From positions 1 through 57,522 of the IMG/VR virus record IMGVR_UViG_3300042325_000111: DNA of 57,522 nucleotides. One strand, 5' to 3'. The stretch is from a virus. Positions 3,785 to 50,689 of the stretch are shown here, piece after piece; the first letter of the stretch is position 1; each line of letters starts with the position of its first letter. Below the pieces are notes generated by a model. It searched no databases. It had not been told where the DNA came from and saw nothing but the letters and a program-made list of their open reading frames with translations. The position numbers and the translations under genes were made by a program.

Positions 3785-4621
3785 ATGAAAATTCGAGAAA
3801 TCACAACAAATCTTTATGAAGCACCTACATTTGGTCAATCACTTGATAGTGCAGTAACTGCAGGAGCAAATCGGTTAAGAAATGCAGTAGGCGGTCCTTC
3901 TACACCTAACAAGTTTGATGTAATTATTAAAAAATTAAAAAACACAACATATTGTGTAATTTTTATTAAACCAATTGCTGACTATTTTATGAATATGAAT
4001 CATTGGGAAGAAGTTTTAAAAGATAAGCCTGCAGATCTTGAGCAACGAAGACAAATAGAGCGCGGTTATTTAATTACCGAGTTAGCTACAATTGCAGGTA
4101 CATTAACCATGGGTGATGTTGGTATATTTCTCTTGTCTGAATTATTTGGATTTATACCAATTATAGGACCACTCCTAGGCAGAATATTTAAAACATTAGG
4201 TCCTGCTGTTCAAGCAGCTGCTATGTTATGGTTGTCGTCAGATGCAGGAAGAATTGCAATTAGTAATTTATTAGCTACATTAGTAGACGTAAAAATTGAA
4301 GATGTTCCTGGTTACGGATCAGATATCATTGATATGTTTAAGAAAGGGTTTGAATGGGCAAAGCAACATGTAGAACAAGGGTATCACGATATAACTACAC
4401 CTGCCGATCCAAATGCACCAAAGCCAGACGCAGGAAAAACAGATACCCCAGCAGATCCAAACAGCCCATGGGCAATTAAACCAGATACACCTCCACCGCC
4501 TAAAAAACAGCGTCTTGATCCATCTCAAATGAAACAAATTGTAGCACCAACAGACGACAGTGCATACAGAACATGGGATAGAGTTACTAGAGATGCAAAT
4601 GGTAAACTACAATTAAAGTAA
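3785..4621 (+). CDS. hypothetical membrane-associated protein with proline-rich tail, 278 aa
   Basis: I do not recognise this protein. A short N-terminal region (MKIREITTNLYE) is followed by a soluble helical part. A hydrophobic central block (about residues 100-168) contains a stretch like FGFIPIIGPLLG and a second hydrophobic helix, suggesting membrane insertion. The C-terminal 80 residues are Pro/Asp/Lys-rich (repeats of PADPN) and probably disordered. There is no signal-peptide signature. A good ribosome site (AAGGAA) lies 5 bp before the ATG. It stands alone between the putative ncRNA and the convergent gp26 unit, overlapping the frameshift ORF by 9 bp tail to tail. It could be an internal virion or membrane-active protein; no family assignment is made. 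Confidence 0.75.
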   Translation: MKIREITTNLYEAPTFGQSLDSAVTAGANRLRNAVGGPSTPNKFDVIIKKLKNTTYCVIFIKPIADYFMNMNHWEEVLKDKPADLEQRRQIERGYLITELATIAGTLTMGDVGIFLLSELFGFIPIIGPLLGRIFKTLGPAVQAAAMLWLSSDAGRIAISNLLATLVDVKIEDVPGYGSDIIDMFKKGFEWAKQHVEQGYHDITTPADPNAPKPDAGKTDTPADPNSPWAIKPDTPPPPKKQRLDPSQMKQIVAPTDDSAYRTWDRVTRDANGKLQLK

Positions 4622-4849
4622 CGGCATTCGAGAAACTTTAGTTAATTCAATATTGTCTTTAACAATATCATACATAATATCGCGATCTTCAGGTCCTAGT
4701 GAATATAGAAGATCGTTGATATTTATACCTCCTCGCATATACCAACATAGTCTATAAAGTTCAAGTTTAAACCGTTTAACTTCATTATCGAGCCTAATTA
4801 GATATTTTATAATATCATTGCGAGAAAGTCTAATTAGGCGGCTGCGAAA
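4613..4849 (-). CDS. start-less -1-frame extension of gp26, probable frameshift-expressed tail assembly protein domain
   Basis: From the slippery site at the end of gp26 the -1 frame stays open for 78 codons, from 4849 down to a TAA at 4615-4613. It encodes a protein-like, helical sequence rich in Arg/Leu/Asp (includes LIRLSRNDIIKYL, LELYRLCWYMRGG and GPEDRDIMYDIV). There is no ATG, GTG or TTG near its beginning; the first ATG falls mid-domain. Expression would come from a -1 ribosomal shift, giving a gp26 fusion of about 348 residues (270+78). This mirrors lambda gpG/gpGT, where a -1 shift appends the T domain to a tail chaperone next to the tape measure gene. Initiation at an ATT codon overlapping the gp26 stop is the less likely alternative. 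Confidence 0.7.
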   Translation of the reverse strand, partial: FRSRLIRLSRNDIIKYLIRLDNEVKRFKLELYRLCWYMRGGININDLLYSLGPEDRDIMYDIVKDNIELTKVSRMPLL

Positions 4850-4855
4850 AAATTT
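4792..4855 (-). promoter_or_regulatory. programmed -1 ribosomal frameshift signal in gp26 mRNA
   Basis: On the - strand the gp26 frame reads GCA AAT TTT TTC, so A-AAT-TTT (4855-4849) is a canonical X-XXY-YYZ slippery heptamer in the correct phase. Nine bases later an 11-bp perfect stem begins: GCCTAATTAGA (4839-4829) pairs with TCTAATTAGGC (4802-4792) around a 26-nt loop. The gp26 stop codon (4836-4834) lies inside the stem. Heptamer, spacer length and downstream structure all fit known -1 frameshift sites. Confidence 0.75.
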
Positions 4856-5658
4856 GCTTGATCTAAATCAATTGATAAACTTATTGCATGTCCGCATGCG
4901 GCACATTTAACGTTAACATCAGGAACTTTCCAAACTTCTTTATTTTTATTAAATTGATCACGTATTTTGTCAAATACGTCTTTATCACAATTAGTTAACC
5001 ATTCAAAAATAAAATTAGGTTCAGTAACTACCACTGTTCCGGTGTCAACTGATTCAATACTAGCAGAATATATATCATTTTGCAAATTACCTAAATCCTT
5101 AAACAGATCAGCAATAATTTGTTTTTGTTCTTCGTCTGATTTACCTGCAGTTGCACCTAATTGTTGTTGTAATCTCATATTACGAATAGAAAAATCAGTT
5201 GTTTGCTTGTACGTTAGTGGTTGCAATTTAATTGTTAACGTGTTATAACTAATTTCGTTATCATACTTGCATTTTGCAAAATGATCAACTACTGTAGTTA
5301 AATTAACGTCATAGTCGTTTTCTTCTCCGCATTTGTCGCATACGTTTGTAATTTCTAAAACGTTTCCAAACGTTGCAATTCGAATTGCAACTAATAACAA
5401 ATCAGAATCTAATGAAGTTACTTCCCAACCATTTTTAACAGATGGGCAACAACTTTCAATAATTGAAACCGTGCTCTTACCAGATATTAATGCATCTGGA
5501 GTTTTAATAATTATTTCATCCATGCCTGTCATGCTATAAATTGGCATATGAGATACATCGCCTGATAATGTTCCTAATTTATTGTAAATGCCACCTGACG
5601 GTAATGAAATAAACACTTTTGGTTGTCTGTAATATTGTTGTAAAGGATTTTGAGCCAT
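4834..5658 (-). CDS. 26: gp26-like baseplate hub / tail assembly protein
   Basis: 274 aa of the T4 gp26 baseplate protein family. The N-terminal FISLPSGGxYN motif is characteristic, followed by the region with MTGMDEIIIKTPDALISG and the later LTIKLQPLTYKQTTDF core. Two CxxC pairs (CDKCG in the middle, CAACG near the C-terminus) could bind zinc. It starts at an ATG with a ribosome site (GGAG) on the - strand and a perfect TATAAATA box upstream. The last codons contain a -1 slippery site feeding a start-less downstream ORF, so two products are predicted: gp26 (274 aa) and a fusion of about 348 aa. It is divergent from the tape-measure-like gene. In T4, gp26 is assigned to baseplate hub assembly; a chaperone role here is inference. 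Confidence 0.85.
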   Translation of the reverse strand: MAQNPLQQYYRQPKVFISLPSGGIYNKLGTLSGDVSHMPIYSMTGMDEIIIKTPDALISGKSTVSIIESCCPSVKNGWEVTSLDSDLLLVAIRIATFGNVLEITNVCDKCGEENDYDVNLTTVVDHFAKCKYDNEISYNTLTIKLQPLTYKQTTDFSIRNMRLQQQLGATAGKSDEEQKQIIADLFKDLGNLQNDIYSASIESVDTGTVVVTEPNFIFEWLTNCDKDVFDKIRDQFNKNKEVWKVPDVNVKCAACGHAISLSIDLDQANFFAAA

Positions 5659-5722: not shown

Positions 5723-8700
5723 ATGGCTCAAACAGAAACAGAACGCCTTACCGAAGCAATAGAAACACTCAATAGAAATCTTAACAGAGGCGGAGGCAGC
5801 GTTGCTCCTAGCAGTAGACCAATTTCTCAAGGTTCAAACTCTGGATCCGGAGTAACTGATCGATTTGTAGATATGGTAGGTGCTACTACCGGCGCTCTTA
5901 AACGTGTTTGGGAAGGTAGTTCAAAAGTAGCAGATGGATTTCATGTGCTAACTGGTGCATTGCAAAATAATGGGGGCTTGCTTGGTAAAACACTTGGTGA
6001 TTTAGCTAATAAAGTTGGTGACTCTGTACTTGATGCACATAAAAAGAATACTGAATTTGGCGAATACGGTGCCAACTTTAACAATAACTTAGGAGAAATG
6101 GATCGGTTAGTTAAAGGTGCAAGATTAACACATGAAGAATACGGTGATATTCTTAAAAGAAACGCAACTGAACTAAATGGATTAGGTTCTACAATGAACC
6201 GGTCACAAGTTAACTTCTTAGAATTTACAAAAGGGTTACAAGAATCAGATGTAGTTAGCAAATTAAAAGAATTTGGACTACAAACTGAGGATGTTACCGA
6301 AGTAGCTAAAGCAGCAATGGCTAGTCAACGCGGTATTGACATGTCAGATATCGAAACTAAGAATGCTGCAATTGATTCTGCTATTCGACTAACTGCGTCA
6401 ATGGATGAAACTACTCGTGTAACTGGTTTAAGTAGAAAAGCACAAGAGGATGACCTAAGAAAACGTAACGAAGATGCAGTTGTTCAAGTTGCATTATCTA
6501 GATTAGACAAAGATGCACGTAATAGATTTAACGAATCCATGGGAGAGATGGCAGGAATGCCAGAAGCTGCTAAACGTGTATTCCAAGAAACATTTACAGG
6601 CGGATTACGCACCAAAGAAGGTGCAGAATCTATGGCTGCAATGGGTAGTGCTGGTCCAGAATTGCAAAAAGCTGCAGAAGCAATGAAGAATGCAAGAACC
6701 GACGAAGAAAAAACTGCAGCTAAAGTTCAAATGCAGAAAGCTGTTGAAGCAGTCGATAAATGGCAAAATTCTGATGGCTTTAAAGACATGGTGCAATATG
6801 GTCAAGGCGGTGTTACTAATCGAGCCATTGAAGCACAAACAAATAATAAAGAATTGCCTCAGATTCAAACAAAGATAGACGAAGAAAGAAATAAAGGTAA
6901 TAATATTGATGAAGCTACTGCTAGACGAATGATTCGCGCAGAAGTTCATAACAATCAAAAAGGTGAAGACGAAAAAGGTGAAAAGTTTAAAGGTTCAGAA
7001 GTTGATACTACTCTAAACAAAGCTGATCGTACATTAAAAGACATGTCAGCCGGTGCATCTAAGGTGTTTGGTGACTTAGTTGAATCAGGAAATAAACTAG
7101 TTAACACATTTAGTGGCATTAACGATGCACTTAAACCTAGAACACAAGAACAAGCAACACCCGGAAACATGGCTAAAGAGATTACTGATGGGTTTAAATC
7201 AGCTATACCGTTAAGTGATGCTCATAAAAAAGCTCAAGAAGCTAGTAACAATGCAACAAAATTAACTCCAGAACAATCAGGTGCATCACCTAAATGGCAT
7301 TTTGCCGATGGTACTCCTCAATTTGAAAAATTCTTATCAGGAGGTGGCGGTTTTAAAGACATGTTTACACCTTTTGATCCTAAAGGTGAGCTTGCAGAGC
7401 TACACGGTAATGAAATTGTAGCTAATGAAGATCAAATGAAACGATTCATTCAGCAAATGATGCCACCTGCATCTCCGTCGGCTGAACAAAAACAATCAAA
7501 AGCATCTGCACCGTCTACTACAGATGTTAAAGATACTGCAAAACCAACAGATCAAACTGCAGCTACACCACAACTAACAGATCTAGGCAAAACGTTTACA
7601 GATATTAATACTGAAATGAAAGGTGTTGCTAAACAGTTTGGTGAAATTGCTGAGAAATTTAAAAACATTACATTTGCTCCTCAAGCAAAAGAAATGCATG
7701 AAACAGTTACTAAAGCAATTGAAAAAGCTACTCCGCAAACTAAAACTGCAGTAGTTAAACCAGTTGAACCACCTAAAGCTGAAGTTAAACCAGAAGTTAA
7801 ACCAGTTGAACCACCTAAAGCTGAAGTTAAACCAGAAGTTAAACCAGTTGAACCACCTAAAGCTGAAGTTAAACCAGAAGTTAAACCAGTTGAATCTAAA
7901 CAATCAGAAATAGCAAAAGCTGAAATGAAACAACTAGCTACTACTATTAAAGCTGGTATTACTAAAGAAGAAAAAACAGAACAAAAATCTGCAGATAATC
8001 CTTTTAAATTAGTAGAACAGCAATCTATTGCACAGTTAGGTGAACATTTTAACAAAATTATTGGCACTCAATCAACTCCAAAAGCCAAGACTCCTGAAGA
8101 ATTAAAAACACTTGAAGAAGGAACTGATTTACCAAAAGGTAGTTTTAAACAAACTAAGTGGGATGTTGATACTAGTTGGGCAAAAGACAAATTAAAAGAA
8201 CTTAGTACGCGAACCGATGAAGATGCAAAGCATGATCGTCCAATTATTGAATCACAACTTGCAGATTTATTAAAACAAGGACGTCCTGCAGACGACCCTG
8301 CAGTTACTGCTGTTGCTAAACATATGGAAGATTTAGGTAAATCAGTTACTGGTTCGCTAACTGAAGTTAAGTCAGCATCAGCTGAAAAATCTAAAACTAC
8401 AGTTGCTCCTCCGCCTAAACCTAAAGCGCCTGATGTTTCTAAGTTAGACGAAAGCCTAATTAACTTAGCTAAGTTTAAACAATCAATGAATTCTGGCGAT
8501 ATATCTAAAATTGGTATGTCGCAAATGGATCTTAGTGACTCTGGTAAAGCTGCAGAAGACAAATTAGGACCGTCCGCAGCTCGTGCAGCATTACAAAAGA
8601 AACGTGAAGCATTAGAAAACGCATCTTTTGACTATGAGCAAATGAAAGCAGACAATACTAAGCCAAATGCCGAATCTGCAGAGAAATTAGCTAAGAAAAA

Positions 8701-9910
8701 AGAAGAAGTTGCAAAATTAGCACTTACATATGAAGACGATCTAATCAAAACTAAAGGTAAGTTAAAACTTCATGCTGAAGAAGAAGCTAAACATGCCGAA
8801 GTTAAAAATAAAACTGCTAAAGAAGCACAAGCAAAACAAGTTGCACAAGCATTAGAAGCTGAAAAGACCTTTATGAAAGAGCATGGTGCAACTGCAAAGT
8901 CATTAGCTGAAAAACCTAAAGTAACTGATAAGCCTATTAAGGAAATGACCGATGCTGAAAAGAATTTTGCAATGTATAGTAGTGGTAATAAACCACCACC
9001 ATTAAAACCTGAAGGTATAAAACCAGTTACTGATCCTAAATTTGATCAGTTGCGTGAACAGCTTGGAAGTTCTTTTAAATCATTAGATGCAACTATTAAA
9101 CCTGCAGGATTACCAAAATTAGAAGATATTACTACTAAATATGAACCACCTAAAGAAGAACCAAAAGAAAAAGGGTTCTTTGATTCGATATCAGATACAT
9201 TTAGTGATGTAGGTTCGTCTATTTCTGGAATATTTAAAGGAGATAATAAACCTGGATTTGCCAAAGGCAATGTAAAATACGAAGAAATTCCACAAGCAGA
9301 AATAGATGCTAAAAATAAACGCATGCAAGAAAGCATCGGAACAATAGATAATAGTCCAGAAGCAATTGCAGCGCAAAAAGCAGAGCTTGATAGACAGCAT
9401 TCAAGTTATTATAAACAAAAACCTGATATTAAAGATGATAAATCTAAAGAACCTGCTAAAATTGATGATAAACCTAAAGTTGAACCATCTAAAGCTGACA
9501 TTAAGAAGCCGCCTGAAACAAAAGAGCAGGCACATGTTAAGGAAATGTACAAAAAGTTTGGATTAGAAACATTTAATGACTACAATACTAGAGTTTCGGC
9601 TGAAGTAAAACAATCACATGCGTCAATTAAAGATGTAAAACCGGATCATGCAGCGTTATCAAAGAAAGACATTGAACAACCTAAACCTACAGAAAAACCT
9701 AAACCGATAGAGCCACCTAAACCAGTACAACCACCACCTGTAGCTCCTGCTATAGTATCAAAAGAAACAACATTAAAAGATCTACACGAAGCGTTAATAC
9801 AGTTAAATAAGACTATGGCACAAATGGCCCAACATACCGATACTATTAGCAGTAATAGTCATAAACAAGTCAAAGCAACTAAAGGATTATCAGGTAACTT
9901 GTTGGGATAA
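5723..9910 (+). CDS. tape-measure-like large structural protein, 1395 aa
   Basis: A very long, Lys/Glu/Ala/Pro-rich, mostly helical protein with coiled-coil-forming stretches. The N-terminal half (about 30-470) looks like a tape-measure helical domain with Gly-rich hydrophobic pieces. Around 525-575 comes a FADGTPQFEKFLSGGG region followed by ELHGNEIVANEDQ, resembling the Gly-rich 'GE(A)GxE' region of phage tape measures. Then come disordered Pro-Lys-Glu segments with 14-residue VKPVEPPKAEVKPE repeats (about 678-720). The C-terminus (HKQVKATKGLSGNLLG) resembles the tail end of large structural proteins in T4-like marine phages. It sits divergent from gp26 and 23 bp before the portal gene. T4 gp29 is only 590 aa, so assignment as the actual ruler is tentative; a giant hub or internal protein is the alternative. 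Confidence 0.6.
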   Translation: MAQTETERLTEAIETLNRNLNRGGGSVAPSSRPISQGSNSGSGVTDRFVDMVGATTGALKRVWEGSSKVADGFHVLTGALQNNGGLLGKTLGDLANKVGDSVLDAHKKNTEFGEYGANFNNNLGEMDRLVKGARLTHEEYGDILKRNATELNGLGSTMNRSQVNFLEFTKGLQESDVVSKLKEFGLQTEDVTEVAKAAMASQRGIDMSDIETKNAAIDSAIRLTASMDETTRVTGLSRKAQEDDLRKRNEDAVVQVALSRLDKDARNRFNESMGEMAGMPEAAKRVFQETFTGGLRTKEGAESMAAMGSAGPELQKAAEAMKNARTDEEKTAAKVQMQKAVEAVDKWQNSDGFKDMVQYGQGGVTNRAIEAQTNNKELPQIQTKIDEERNKGNNIDEATARRMIRAEVHNNQKGEDEKGEKFKGSEVDTTLNKADRTLKDMSAGASKVFGDLVESGNKLVNTFSGINDALKPRTQEQATPGNMAKEITDGFKSAIPLSDAHKKAQEASNNATKLTPEQSGASPKWHFADGTPQFEKFLSGGGGFKDMFTPFDPKGELAELHGNEIVANEDQMKRFIQQMMPPASPSAEQKQSKASAPSTTDVKDTAKPTDQTAATPQLTDLGKTFTDINTEMKGVAKQFGEIAEKFKNITFAPQAKEMHETVTKAIEKATPQTKTAVVKPVEPPKAEVKPEVKPVEPPKAEVKPEVKPVEPPKAEVKPEVKPVESKQSEIAKAEMKQLATTIKAGITKEEKTEQKSADNPFKLVEQQSIAQLGEHFNKIIGTQSTPKAKTPEELKTLEEGTDLPKGSFKQTKWDVDTSWAKDKLKELSTRTDEDAKHDRPIIESQLADLLKQGRPADDPAVTAVAKHMEDLGKSVTGSLTEVKSASAEKSKTTVAPPPKPKAPDVSKLDESLINLAKFKQSMNSGDISKIGMSQMDLSDSGKAAEDKLGPSAARAALQKKREALENASFDYEQMKADNTKPNAESAEKLAKKKEEVAKLALTYEDDLIKTKGKLKLHAEEEAKHAEVKNKTAKEAQAKQVAQALEAEKTFMKEHGATAKSLAEKPKVTDKPIKEMTDAEKNFAMYSSGNKPPPLKPEGIKPVTDPKFDQLREQLGSSFKSLDATIKPAGLPKLEDITTKYEPPKEEPKEKGFFDSISDTFSDVGSSISGIFKGDNKPGFAKGNVKYEEIPQAEIDAKNKRMQESIGTIDNSPEAIAAQKAELDRQHSSYYKQKPDIKDDKSKEPAKIDDKPKVEPSKADIKKPPETKEQAHVKEMYKKFGLETFNDYNTRVSAEVKQSHASIKDVKPDHAALSKKDIEQPKPTEKPKPIEPPKPVQPPPVAPAIVSKETTLKDLHEALIQLNKTMAQMAQHTDTISSNSHKQVKATKGLSGNLLG
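7754..7895 (+). repeat. 42-bp in-frame tandem repeat, about 3.4 copies
   Basis: Units at 7754-7795, 7796-7837 and 7838-7879 look identical; a partial fourth starts at 7880. Each encodes VKPVEPPKAEVKPE. Near-identity at DNA level implies recent slippage or unequal recombination. Confidence 0.9.
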
Positions 9911-47861: not shown

Positions 47862-48941
47862 ATGACAATTGACGTTTTAACATTAAATGCGTATTTAGAA
47901 GAAAATCAAACATTATTAAATTCAGGCGAGTACACAGCTGCATACTCAGCTGCGTATGCAACTGCATACTCAAGTGGTTGTATAGCTGCAGCCAGTTCGT
48001 TCCTTCAATCGCAAATTAATCAAACACCGTGTAATGTATCATTATGGTGTTCTATTCCGATGATGACCGGTGGCGTGACGGGAACCGTATTAGTTTGCGA
48101 TACAAGTGGCTATTTTCGATGTGGTGCATCGTGTTCGTGGACAGTACCAAACGGGATAACCTGCGCACAATTTCAAATGTGGGGTGCAGGCGGCGGCAGC
48201 AATGCCGGATGCTGTTGTGGTGGCGCAAACAATGGCGGAACAGGTGCGTATGTATCTGTTATTATGCCAGTTACTGCTGGTACTGTATATACATTATGTG
48301 CAGGGTGTGCGACTTGCTGTTACCCAACACCCGGCAGTAGCTATTGCGGCCGCGGATGTGCATCCTATGTAACCGGTACTGGAATGTGTAATGTATGTGC
48401 CGAAGGTGGCGCCAATTTTCACTGGCAATCAATATTAGATCAAGGGTGTTACGGATCAGCTGGTGGCGGTTATTGGTGTACTATTGAATACTATCCAAAT
48501 AGTGGTACTACTGCCGGCCCATGTGTTTGTGGTAGTAATAATTATTGCAGTAACTCATGCGCTACATGCGGCGAAGTCGTAGTTCATAGAAACTCACTAG
48601 TTAATTTTTATGGATGTGCAACAAACGGAAAACTTATGGGCATTCCGGGACTACATGGTGGGTTATGTCTGGACACTAACCAATATGGACATTTTACGAA
48701 TCCGCCAGTAATTAATACAACGCATACCGGGGCATTTGACAGCGCGAGCAATTGCGGCTGTCGAGTATGTTTTACTAGTGAAAATAATTTAGGAGGCTGT
48801 CTATGCAGTGGCGGAATAAATGGTACGTCAGTTCAACAATTTCCCGGAGCAGGCGGTTTTGCGCATCATGCAATGGGCGGAAATACTACCGGCTGTGGCG
48901 ATGCAGGGCGTATGGGTATGGTACGTGTTACTTACAGATAA
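47862..48941 (+). CDS. cysteine- and glycine-rich putative receptor-binding protein, 359 aa
   Basis: Contains 33 Cys (about 9%), many as CC, CCC, CxC or CxxC, plus abundant Gly. The core from about residue 85 (SGYFRCGASCSWTVPNGITC, then FQMWGAGGG) is the glycine-rich fibre-tip motif 'f..sgt(W)tVPaGVt...v.lwGaGGGG' of many phages, with Cys substituted at numerous positions. The ending GCGDAGRMGMVRVTY is also typical. The N-terminal 60 residues are Ala/Tyr/Ser-rich (YTAAYSAAYATAYS) and may pack onto a shaft. There is no signal peptide. It is paralogous to the protein at 49613, with one unrelated gene between. The Cys may stabilise the tip by disulphides formed outside the reducing cytoplasm or bind metal; both ideas are inference. 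Confidence 0.82.
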   Translation: MTIDVLTLNAYLEENQTLLNSGEYTAAYSAAYATAYSSGCIAAASSFLQSQINQTPCNVSLWCSIPMMTGGVTGTVLVCDTSGYFRCGASCSWTVPNGITCAQFQMWGAGGGSNAGCCCGGANNGGTGAYVSVIMPVTAGTVYTLCAGCATCCYPTPGSSYCGRGCASYVTGTGMCNVCAEGGANFHWQSILDQGCYGSAGGGYWCTIEYYPNSGTTAGPCVCGSNNYCSNSCATCGEVVVHRNSLVNFYGCATNGKLMGIPGLHGGLCLDTNQYGHFTNPPVINTTHTGAFDSASNCGCRVCFTSENNLGGCLCSGGINGTSVQQFPGAGGFAHHAMGGNTTGCGDAGRMGMVRVTYR

Positions 48942-48956
48942 AATATAGGAATAATA

Positions 48957-49613
48957 ATGAAACAGAAATTTACACAAAAAATACCAAACGAAATTTATAT
49001 CGATGACTTTTCAGATAATAAAGTTATGGAATTAGAATACAATGGACCAGATACACTGTTATTAGAAGTTGACGGTAATGGGACTGCATTTAAAATTGTT
49101 GAAGAAGCAAGACCGATGCTTGAACCGACATCATATATGTATCATATTGAATTAAATGCTGCAGATGCAATTGAAGCAGCACATTATATTTACACGCATG
49201 CTGATGAGCATATTTATGAGAATATTGATATTCCAAATCCAGATGGGTCAATTTATATTGCAGTTTCAAATCCAAGAATTCAAGATTACTATCGATTAAC
49301 TTATCAACCGGCTGGGTTAGATATGCCAGGAATTTGGCATTTTAATCTAATTACTAGAAGTATGCATTCAACTATCGAATTAAAAGTAATAAATGATTAT
49401 AACAATGCTAAGAAAAAATTATCACCGATTTTATTAACTGCCGAAACACAGACTGCGTTTGATGATTATACTGCAAAGGTAGAAGCATGGATTGCAGATA
49501 CAGCAGATTTATGTCCATGGAAATATATTGAATTTCCTGCAGGAGACATACCAAAATTACCATTAGTTCTTATTAGGTTAATTGCAGAATTAGATTCGTA
49601 CGGGGTTGTATAA
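48957..49613 (+). CDS. hypothetical protein between the Cys-rich adhesins, 218 aa
   Basis: Unrecognised. It has only one Cys, in sharp contrast to its neighbours. The N-terminal half is beta-like and acidic (NEIYIDDFSDNKVMELEYNGPDTLLLEVDG); the middle (NAADAIEAAHYIYTHADEHIYENIDIPNPDGS) and the C-terminus (FDDYTAKVEAWIADTADL, then FPAGDIPKLPLVLIRLIAEL) are helical. Its stop overlaps the next start by one base (TAATG), so it is coupled to the second adhesin. Being single-copy between two paralogous tip proteins, it could be an adhesin chaperone or adaptor, similar in placement to fibre assembly factors such as T4 gp38; this is inference from position. Confidence 0.7.
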   Translation: MKQKFTQKIPNEIYIDDFSDNKVMELEYNGPDTLLLEVDGNGTAFKIVEEARPMLEPTSYMYHIELNAADAIEAAHYIYTHADEHIYENIDIPNPDGSIYIAVSNPRIQDYYRLTYQPAGLDMPGIWHFNLITRSMHSTIELKVINDYNNAKKKLSPILLTAETQTAFDDYTAKVEAWIADTADLCPWKYIEFPAGDIPKLPLVLIRLIAELDSYGVV

Positions 49614-50689
49614 TGTCTAGTGTATTAATATACAATGCAATCAAACAAAATTTTGCGTATAATCGATCAGCATCAACAGCTGCAATTACTACAATTGCAC
49701 AATCTGCAGGTACTGCTGCAGGTATTGCTGCCGGCGGTGGTCCGTCAACATGCTTAACAGCAGCGAATGTGGGTAATCAAATTGGTTTCTCACCATCTAC
49801 TAGTATAGAAACTTGGAAAACTATTCCACGGTTAGCTGGATATACTGGAAGCATAGCAGTATGTGATACAAGTGGCTATTTTCGATGTGGTGCATCATGC
49901 ACATGGACAGTACCTACAGGAGTAACATGTGCTGACTTTCAACTATGGGGACCTGGTAGTGGTACTGGTACTAATTGCTGTTGTGGCGGTGCACCGCATG
50001 GCCCAACTGGCGCGTTTGCATCGGTTGTTATGCCAGTTACTGCTGGTTCTGTATATACAATATGTGCAGGGTGTGCGTATTGCTGTTATGCATCACAAAC
50101 AACTCCAGGATTGTGTGGTGGACCATCATATGTAACTGGTCCAGGCCTAAATAATTTCTGCGCAGATTCCGGTATAAGTTGTGTATGTAATTGGCGGGCA
50201 AGTTTACCCGGTCCAGCTAGCGGAACACTAGGATGGGGATTAACATATCCAGGTGGCAGCGGTTGTCAATTCCCAAGTGGTAATAATTGTGGACCTGAAT
50301 CATGCAGTGGATGGAATTTTTGTTGGGATAGTTTAAACGATTCAGTAACAATACAAGATTTTTCATTTAGTTGTGTAACAAGATTCTATGGTACTGCTAC
50401 CGGTAGTTGTGTATACGGTTTAGCCGGAATGTATCCTAAGTTCATGATTAGTGAAACTATGTGCGGTATTTCAGTTGCAGCACCGGTCTATGGATTTGAA
50501 AATTCAACACAGTGTATATATTGTTGGAATGGAAACACTTGTGCAGGTTGTATGGCTGCTCCAATGTGCGGTTCTGGATTTCTAAGAAATCCAGGAAGTG
50601 GTGGTTATGCTAGTTCAGTATATGGCGGGTGTAATGCATGTTACGGTGATTCGGGGCGAATGGGAATGGTTTGCGTTAGATTCAAATAA
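49613..50689 (+). CDS. cysteine- and glycine-rich putative receptor-binding protein, 358 aa
   Basis: Paralogue of the 47862 gene with 31 Cys. Shared blocks: VCDTSGYFRCGASC-WTVP-GVTC, CCCGGA..GPTGA, VMPVTAG-VYT-CAGCA-CCY, SYVTG and the ending GDSGRMGMV. The N-terminal 45 residues differ (Ala/Ile/Thr-rich helix, AGTAAGIAAGGGPSTC) and so does the variable middle (about 160-330), while framework Cys are kept; such divergence fits two receptor specificities on a common scaffold. Its start overlaps the upstream stop (TAATG). About 57 bp of AT-rich sequence and a CTAAATA box follow before the sugar-modification genes. Confidence 0.82.
   Translation: MSSVLIYNAIKQNFAYNRSASTAAITTIAQSAGTAAGIAAGGGPSTCLTAANVGNQIGFSPSTSIETWKTIPRLAGYTGSIAVCDTSGYFRCGASCTWTVPTGVTCADFQLWGPGSGTGTNCCCGGAPHGPTGAFASVVMPVTAGSVYTICAGCAYCCYASQTTPGLCGGPSYVTGPGLNNFCADSGISCVCNWRASLPGPASGTLGWGLTYPGGSGCQFPSGNNCGPESCSGWNFCWDSLNDSVTIQDFSFSCVTRFYGTATGSCVYGLAGMYPKFMISETMCGISVAAPVYGFENSTQCIYCWNGNTCAGCMAAPMCGSGFLRNPGSGGYASSVYGGCNACYGDSGRMGMVCVRFK

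Follow-up and report, generated by a model that had tools for sequence, protein, structure and literature searches.

A probable −1 frameshift joins a T4-type gp26-like tail assembly chaperone to a C-terminal domain in a viral lineage with a covarying stem

The DNA analysed here is a viral stretch of 57,522 nt (IMG/VR record IMGVR_UViG_3300042325_000111, hereafter the window). Near one end it carries a gp26-like gene of the T4 type on the minus strand, the 3′ end of which is overlapped by a second reading frame in the −1 phase, and a long divergent gene on the plus strand. The features discussed below are as follows.

5723–9910, plus strand: divergent 1,395-aa candidate tape measure protein (profile match to the equally placed protein of 121Q/RaK2-type phages)
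4834–5658, minus strand: gp26-like predicted tail assembly chaperone, short form (TAC-N), 274 aa (PF12322, PHROG_150 and BFVD matches)
4849–4855, minus strand: A-AAT-TTT heptamer, the slip site proposed by the first-pass annotation; overlaps T-TTT-TTC and is kept in 33/69 distinct relatives (sample including the best 80 of 556)
4846–4852, minus strand: slippery heptamer T-TTT-TTC, the corrected site, in phase in 70/70 distinct loci (sample including the best 80 of 556)
4613–4852, minus strand: −1 frame from the slip site, predicted C-terminal domain of the long form (TAC-C), 79 codons from the heptamer plus TAA (no stops; pN/pS)
4829–4839, minus strand: 5′ arm of a putative frameshift-stimulating stem, holding the gp26 stop codon at 4836–4834 (covariation, folds)
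4792–4802, minus strand: 3′ arm of the same stem (covariation across 69 relatives)

Direct reading bore out the coordinates first given to gp26 (5658–4834, minus strand, 274 aa). The protein matched PF12322 in a Pfam scan (E 1.1e-14) and PHROG_150, ‘baseplate hub', in a PHROGs scan (E 1.8e-15). Its AlphaFold2 model (pLDDT 87) was matched by Foldseek in BFVD to T4-type hub assembly proteins (best E 2.4e-22, TM 0.89). PDB searches with the models of gp26 and of the C-terminal domain gave no usable match; the VIA-align Z did not exceed 7.5 and came mainly from the helical part 131–228. A single PF12322 copy was found in each of seven records out of seven (121Q, Phosso and a 372-kb lineage contig near genome size, the rest being fragments). 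Elsewhere in the window, two nearby genes at 47862–48941 and 49613–50689 match PHROG_35878 near full length (E 3.3e-64 and 1.9e-63); they look like a duplication.

The junction was compared across a lineage sample of 109 loci, including that of the window; the sample contains the best 80 of 556 from a wider scan and thus leans to close relatives. A 160-nt key reduced it to 70 distinct loci (39 duplicates), of which all 70 served for the slip site, 69 for the stem (one being too short) and 68 for coding in the −1 frame. Near the end of gp26 the zero frame reads GCA AAT TTT TTC GCA GCC GCC TAA. The first-pass annotation had placed the slip on A-AAT-TTT (4855–4849), which is indeed present in the phase given, but the heptamer that is fixed is T-TTT-TTC, three bases downstream (4852–4846). 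The slip site, the −1 phase, the stem and the missing start are thus kept in the lineage, in favour of the first-pass reading, but A-AAT-TTT itself in only 33/69 relatives. The codon preceding TTT-TTC always ends in T (AAT in 53 loci, AGT in 11, GAT in 3, ACT in 2 and TCT in 1), and the heptamer lies 9 nt from the gp26 stop in 65 loci and 3 nt from it in 5 (70 loci, the best 80 of 556 included). Of 18 other Phe-Phe pairs, found in 34 long ORFs elsewhere in the window, none is spelled NNT-TTT-TTC; protein conservation alone therefore does not explain the fixed heptamer. The predicted size of the fusion (348 aa, against 274 aa for plain gp26) is unaffected by the correction, as either heptamer gives an identical product.

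From the slip site the −1 ORF extends for 77 codons and stays open to the TAA at 4615–4613. In the window its first ATG, GTG or TTG is reached only near the middle of the ORF, at the methionine of the conserved motif WYMRGG, so the earlier description of an ORF lacking a usable start was apt. The −1 frame crosses the gp26 stop in 28/28 IMG/VR relatives (46–100% identical) and is open through it in 70/70 distinct lineage loci, two of which run off the contig before the ORF ends (best 80 of 556 included). No stop interrupts it in any of the 68 full-length relatives of this sample, again with the best 80 of 556, over 79 codons; the other two frames of the same stretch average 6.4 and 10.3 stops. 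Pooled pN/pS in the −1 frame was 0.45 before WYMRGG and 0.35 after it, where the other two frames gave about 0.9 and 1.5 (raw values from pairs 60–97% identical, uncorrected for saturation). Ahead of WYMRGG, conservation extends from the slip site onward (FFR..L). The lineage shares no start: among the 70 loci, which include the best 80 of 556, the first ATG, GTG or TTG falls at WYM in 33 and is scattered in 37, 9 of these at +8, and an ATG beginning 8 nt after the first base of the gp26 stop codon occurs in 4 of the 70. These comparisons indicate that the −1 ORF is coding and under purifying selection in the lineage. The AlphaFold2 model of the domain that it encodes consists entirely of helices (pLDDT 86). 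One candidate identity, a counterpart of T4 gp26′ (ATT start), was rejected, gp26′ starting inside gp26 itself.

Downstream of the heptamer, the arms GCCTAATTAGA and TCTAATTAGGC pair perfectly over 11 bp around a 26-nt loop, with the gp26 stop codon inside the stem. The hairpin previously noted (4839–4829 with 4802–4792) was thus confirmed by direct reading, and its spacer, given as 9 nt, is 6 nt when counted from the conserved T-TTT-TTC. Across the 69 relatives (best 80 of 556 included), all 11 pairs form in 40, 10 in 25, 9 in one, 8 in two and 6 in one. Paired cells made up 95.0% of the total versus 89.1 ± 0.7% when the 3′ arms were shuffled among the 69 relatives, and cells with changes on both sides numbered 47 versus 18.5 ± 3.1; neither value was reached by any of 2,000 shuffles. 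Five pairs changed on both sides, a number also reached by 8 of the 2,000. Sliding the 3′ arm by 1–3 bases left at most 56% paired; as a control, a slide of −1 base still showed 4 pairs and 34 cells with double changes. Covariation is therefore better measured by the paired fraction and the cell count than by the number of double-changed pairs. None of the shuffle figures is a probability, because shuffling ignores relatedness. For 16 lineage members, z of the folding energy lay between −1.2 and −3.9 (window −1.3), and Rfam held no family at the frameshift site. The stem of the window lineage covaries.

Taken together, these observations suggest, with a probability that we put at about 0.9, that the gp26-like gene encodes the T4-type tail assembly chaperone of a giant phage of the T4 superfamily, made as a 274-aa short form and, by −1 frameshifting, as a 348-aa long form. 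From the sequences we infer slippage in the cell, its rate, both products and a chaperone role on the tape measure. Most ribosomes would terminate at the gp26 stop codon and release the short form. A minority would slip back one base on T-TTT-TTC, with tRNA-Phe re-pairing from UUU-UUC to UUU-UUU, a step that the stem, starting 6 nt downstream and enclosing the gp26 stop, would aid; these ribosomes would continue in the −1 frame and produce the long form with its helical C-terminal domain. Lambda gpG/gpGT offers a model for their roles: coating of the tape measure protein would fall to the short form, and recruitment of tail tube subunits to the long form, the rarer of the two.

The likeness to lambda, which the first-pass annotation had put forward, holds in substance as a matter of anatomy: each system pairs a short form with a −1 fusion that adds a second domain, and a long tail-type protein is encoded nearby. 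No likeness of sequence or fold was detected, as no lambda-type chaperone family was found for the window proteins in the Pfam and PHROGs scans and the PDB gave no usable match. Nor does the likeness extend to a one-strand gene order, the candidate tape measure of the window lying on the opposite strand. The lambda slip site is GGGAAAG, and that of the window T-TTT-TTC.

We then considered phages outside the lineage, using 26 annotated phages chosen for variety among the matches listed and not at random (T4 and RB43 not included). In all 26 the −1 frame runs past the position of the gp26 stop without interruption. T-TTT-TTN occurs in 23, as T-TTT-TTC in 20 of them, including 121Q, RaK2, GAP32, BF, CBB, Phosso, Atu_ph07, Paride, PA5oct, KVP40 and five cyanophages, and as T-TTT-TTT in RAS14, T-TTT-TTG in RHph_Y68 and T-TTT-TTA in XG4. 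A canonical heptamer is absent at the gp26 end of the other three, K447, Cygsa01 and SM5; these members of the Ackermannviridae retain the −1 ORF and have only CTT-TTC or ATT-TTC at the heptamer position. The missing start, a claim which stood within the lineage, does not hold for all phages outside it, since 11 of the 26 have a −1-frame ATG that overlaps the gp26 stop: as TAATG in eight (121Q, BF, Kaldavass, KVP40, Cygsa01, S-CRM01, XG4 and K447), as ATGA in Phosso and Atu_ph07, and as TGATG in RHph_Y68. Reinitiation could consequently add to slippage or replace it in those 11 phages.

The C-terminal domain of the window is homologous to those of Phosso and Atu_ph07 (hhalign 99.1%) and of 121Q-type phages (94.2%). 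The match to Paride was weak (44.9%), and the domain is not securely related to the T4/RB43 type (4.7%) or to the cyanophage type (0.9% alone, 31.8% with giant-phage sequences pooled). Cyanophages and KVP40 nevertheless have the same heptamer, −1 ORF and position as the window, in the form of gp26 and a short ‘gp51'. Cyanophage gp51 is described in a passage of PMC3037559 as only ~20% as long as others, as would be expected if gp26 slips into this short −1 ORF. The order gp26, short ORF, long protein runs on one strand in S-SM2, syn9 and KVP40, unlike in the window, and in RHph_Y68 with one small gene between; in S-RIM2, the gene after the short ORF encodes just 251 aa. By contrast, the 121Q/RaK2/GAP32-type giants and Phosso resemble the window in having gp26 with its −1 ORF and, as neighbours, a divergent long protein and the portal. 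Atu_ph07, unlike the window, is without the divergent long neighbour; its gp701, annotated as tape measure, was set aside as it has only 205 aa. Among the 16 non-lineage phages folded, only Phosso (z −4.7) and Atu_ph07 (z −7.9) have a strong downstream stem, as the window lineage does; the other 14, including all seven enterobacterial giants tested, showed no clear one. Its clearly covarying stem makes the window lineage a good test case for how a slip rate is set.

Several database genes, named ‘gp51 baseplate hub assembly catalyst' or labelled hypothetical, resemble the C-terminal parts of such fusions with shortened starts. At seven loci, small gp26-adjacent genes so named begin part-way into the −1 ORF. 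PHROG_18291 matches the 121Q −1 ORF from roughly the annotated start onward. PHROG_634, which also bears the name ‘gp51 baseplate hub assembly catalyst', matches residues 147–246 of T4 gp51.

T4 itself appears to have replaced the slip by two genes, 26 for the short form and 51 for the long form, where the window record has one copy, a slip site and a covarying stem. Both T4 proteins match PF12322 and PHROG_150 and each other (blastp E 1.7e-6). Of the 282 positions of the PHROG_150 model, gp26 covers 14–235 and gp51 13–280, the C-terminal end being covered by gp51 alone, and hhalign matched the gp51 C-terminus of T4/RB43 at 96.2% to −1 ORFs from cyanophages, vibriophages and related phages. 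At the end of T4 gene 26 there is no slip site, and the −1 frame there leads into gene 25. These matches indicate that gp26 and gp51 are paralogues and that gp51 is a gp26-like domain and the C-terminal piece in one frame. It would follow that T4 encodes the short and the long form in separate genes, whereas a single slipping gene serves for both in the others. KVP40, a member of the Straboviridae like T4, retains the slipping form, so the switch to two genes may have taken place inside that family or close to it.

Vladimirov, Gautam and Davidson (Virology 2022, 566:9-15) reportedly named the tail assembly chaperone genes of T4-like phages; frameshifting is said there to be kept in several T4-like groups, with T4 using genes 26 and 51. 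That the slip site occurs in cyanophages, KVP40 and several giant-phage groups, and that T4 gp51 looks like an in-frame long form, agrees with the 2022 report. A passage of PMC10885494 cites this paper for T4-like phages with one short gene and one long fused gene, and one of PMC12846349 credits it with the polyT slip site in the short-form gene of T4-like phages. The first-pass annotation was aware of no such description for gp26; with T4-like chaperones and polyT slip sites credited in these passages to the 2022 paper, novelty in kind falls away. The chaperones so credited share the PF12322/PHROG_150 family with the window protein, as tested on T4 gp26 and gp51, and the polyT slip site. A 2016 review had, in the passage concerned, named T4 as an exception to the G/GT frameshift rule (PMC5009743). 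A frameshifted T4-type chaperone is thus known in kind, and the additions made here are the window lineage, the corrected position of the slip site, the covariation of the stem and a broad survey. No paper describing the window lineage or its stem was found in full-text searches of open-licence papers.

The 1,395-aa neighbour lies between gp26 and the portal gene and is a likely candidate for the tape measure protein. The same position is held by proteins of 709–832 aa in RaK2, XaC1, 121Q, GAP32, BF, Phosso and Paride. Its profile matched the 121Q/RaK2-type protein at hhalign 95.7%, a figure weaker than it looks because the alignment is partly contaminated (the wrong gene was picked at four loci, L009, L012, L014 and L023, three of which were retained); values were 82.9% for Phosso and 31.4% for Paride. 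The divergent neighbour reported by the first-pass annotation is thus there, but its tape-measure character found no family match: no Pfam family was hit and the best PHROG had an E of 0.086. The PA5oct counterpart is marked ESI-MS/MS in its sequence record, and RaK2 gp088, the counterpart in that phage, is given in a passage of PMC3622015 as missed by virion mass spectrometry. Tandem KPVEPPKAEVKPEV-type repeats lie inside the protein, at about 7680–7900.

Other explanations of the junction would dispense with ribosomal slippage. The short ORF could encode a separate small protein, translated from an internal start (the WYMRGG ATG, or a rare ATC after AGGAGGT) or by stop-restart coupling. Separate starts are annotated in Phosso, 121Q, KVP40, Cygsa01, S-CRM01 and others, and the ATG over the gp26 stop in 11/26 phages outside the lineage, like that near the stop in 4/70 lineage loci, would permit such a protein there; in the window, an AGGAGGT lies about halfway into the −1 ORF. 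This AGGAGGT, however, is the spelling of the conserved RGG codons, and the window has no ATG at the junction. Purifying selection on the −1 frame already acts ahead of WYMRGG, in a stretch conserved from the slip site, and without a start shared by the lineage (WYM in just 33/70, best 80 of 556 included) a separate protein fits the window lineage poorly. It would also leave the fixed T-TTT-TTC unexplained, and we regard it as very improbable. Still less credible is transcriptional slippage on the T6 run, by which RNA polymerase and not the ribosome would make the fusion. A homopolymer run does exist and the same protein would result, but six T are short for polymerase slippage, which usually takes runs of 8–9 or more, and the single-phase NNT-TTT-TTC, followed after 6 nt by a covarying stem, is in keeping with a slip of the ribosome.

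A further alternative accepts the fusion and changes its role, the pair acting in baseplate hub assembly and not as a tape-measure chaperone. Passages of PMC3004832 list T4 gp26 and gp51 as hub assembly chaperones and cite genetic studies that place gp26 in the hub; they also state that assembly depends on gp51 and that the finished particle lacks it, as expected of a tail chaperone. RaK2 gp087 (gp26) is not listed, in the passage of PMC3622015 on the point, among the predicted virion proteins missed by mass spectrometry, which suggests that it was detected in virions, and the CBB record labels gp26 ‘structural protein'. Together with the T4 hub genetics, these count against a purely transient chaperone. 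On the other hand, a long tape-measure-like gene adjoins in several lineages, and the 2022 assignment, as cited elsewhere in the passages above, is to tail assembly chaperones. An exclusive hub role thus seems improbable, though less so than the two preceding alternatives, and the hub assembly and tail chaperone roles may overlap.

Beyond the tail chaperone reading, a wider and rather unlikely extension would have one ancestral slipping cassette behind all T4-superfamily tails and, by fold, also behind the phiKZ/RSL1-type gp26-like proteins, where the long form would now be a single in-frame protein; the stem of the window lineage would then raise the slip rate for an unusually long tape measure. 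If so, frameshift efficiency would be an evolvable setting of tail assembly. The gp26 fold was also seen by Foldseek in BFVD to resemble large unnamed proteins of giant phages (E about 3e-7 to 6e-5, TM about 0.5), namely those of Special G (539 aa), RSF1 (507 aa), Motura (438 aa), Eowyn (553 aa), phiEaH2 (686 aa) and phiRSL1 (384 aa), which, on these model comparisons, are possibly unrecognised tail chaperones.
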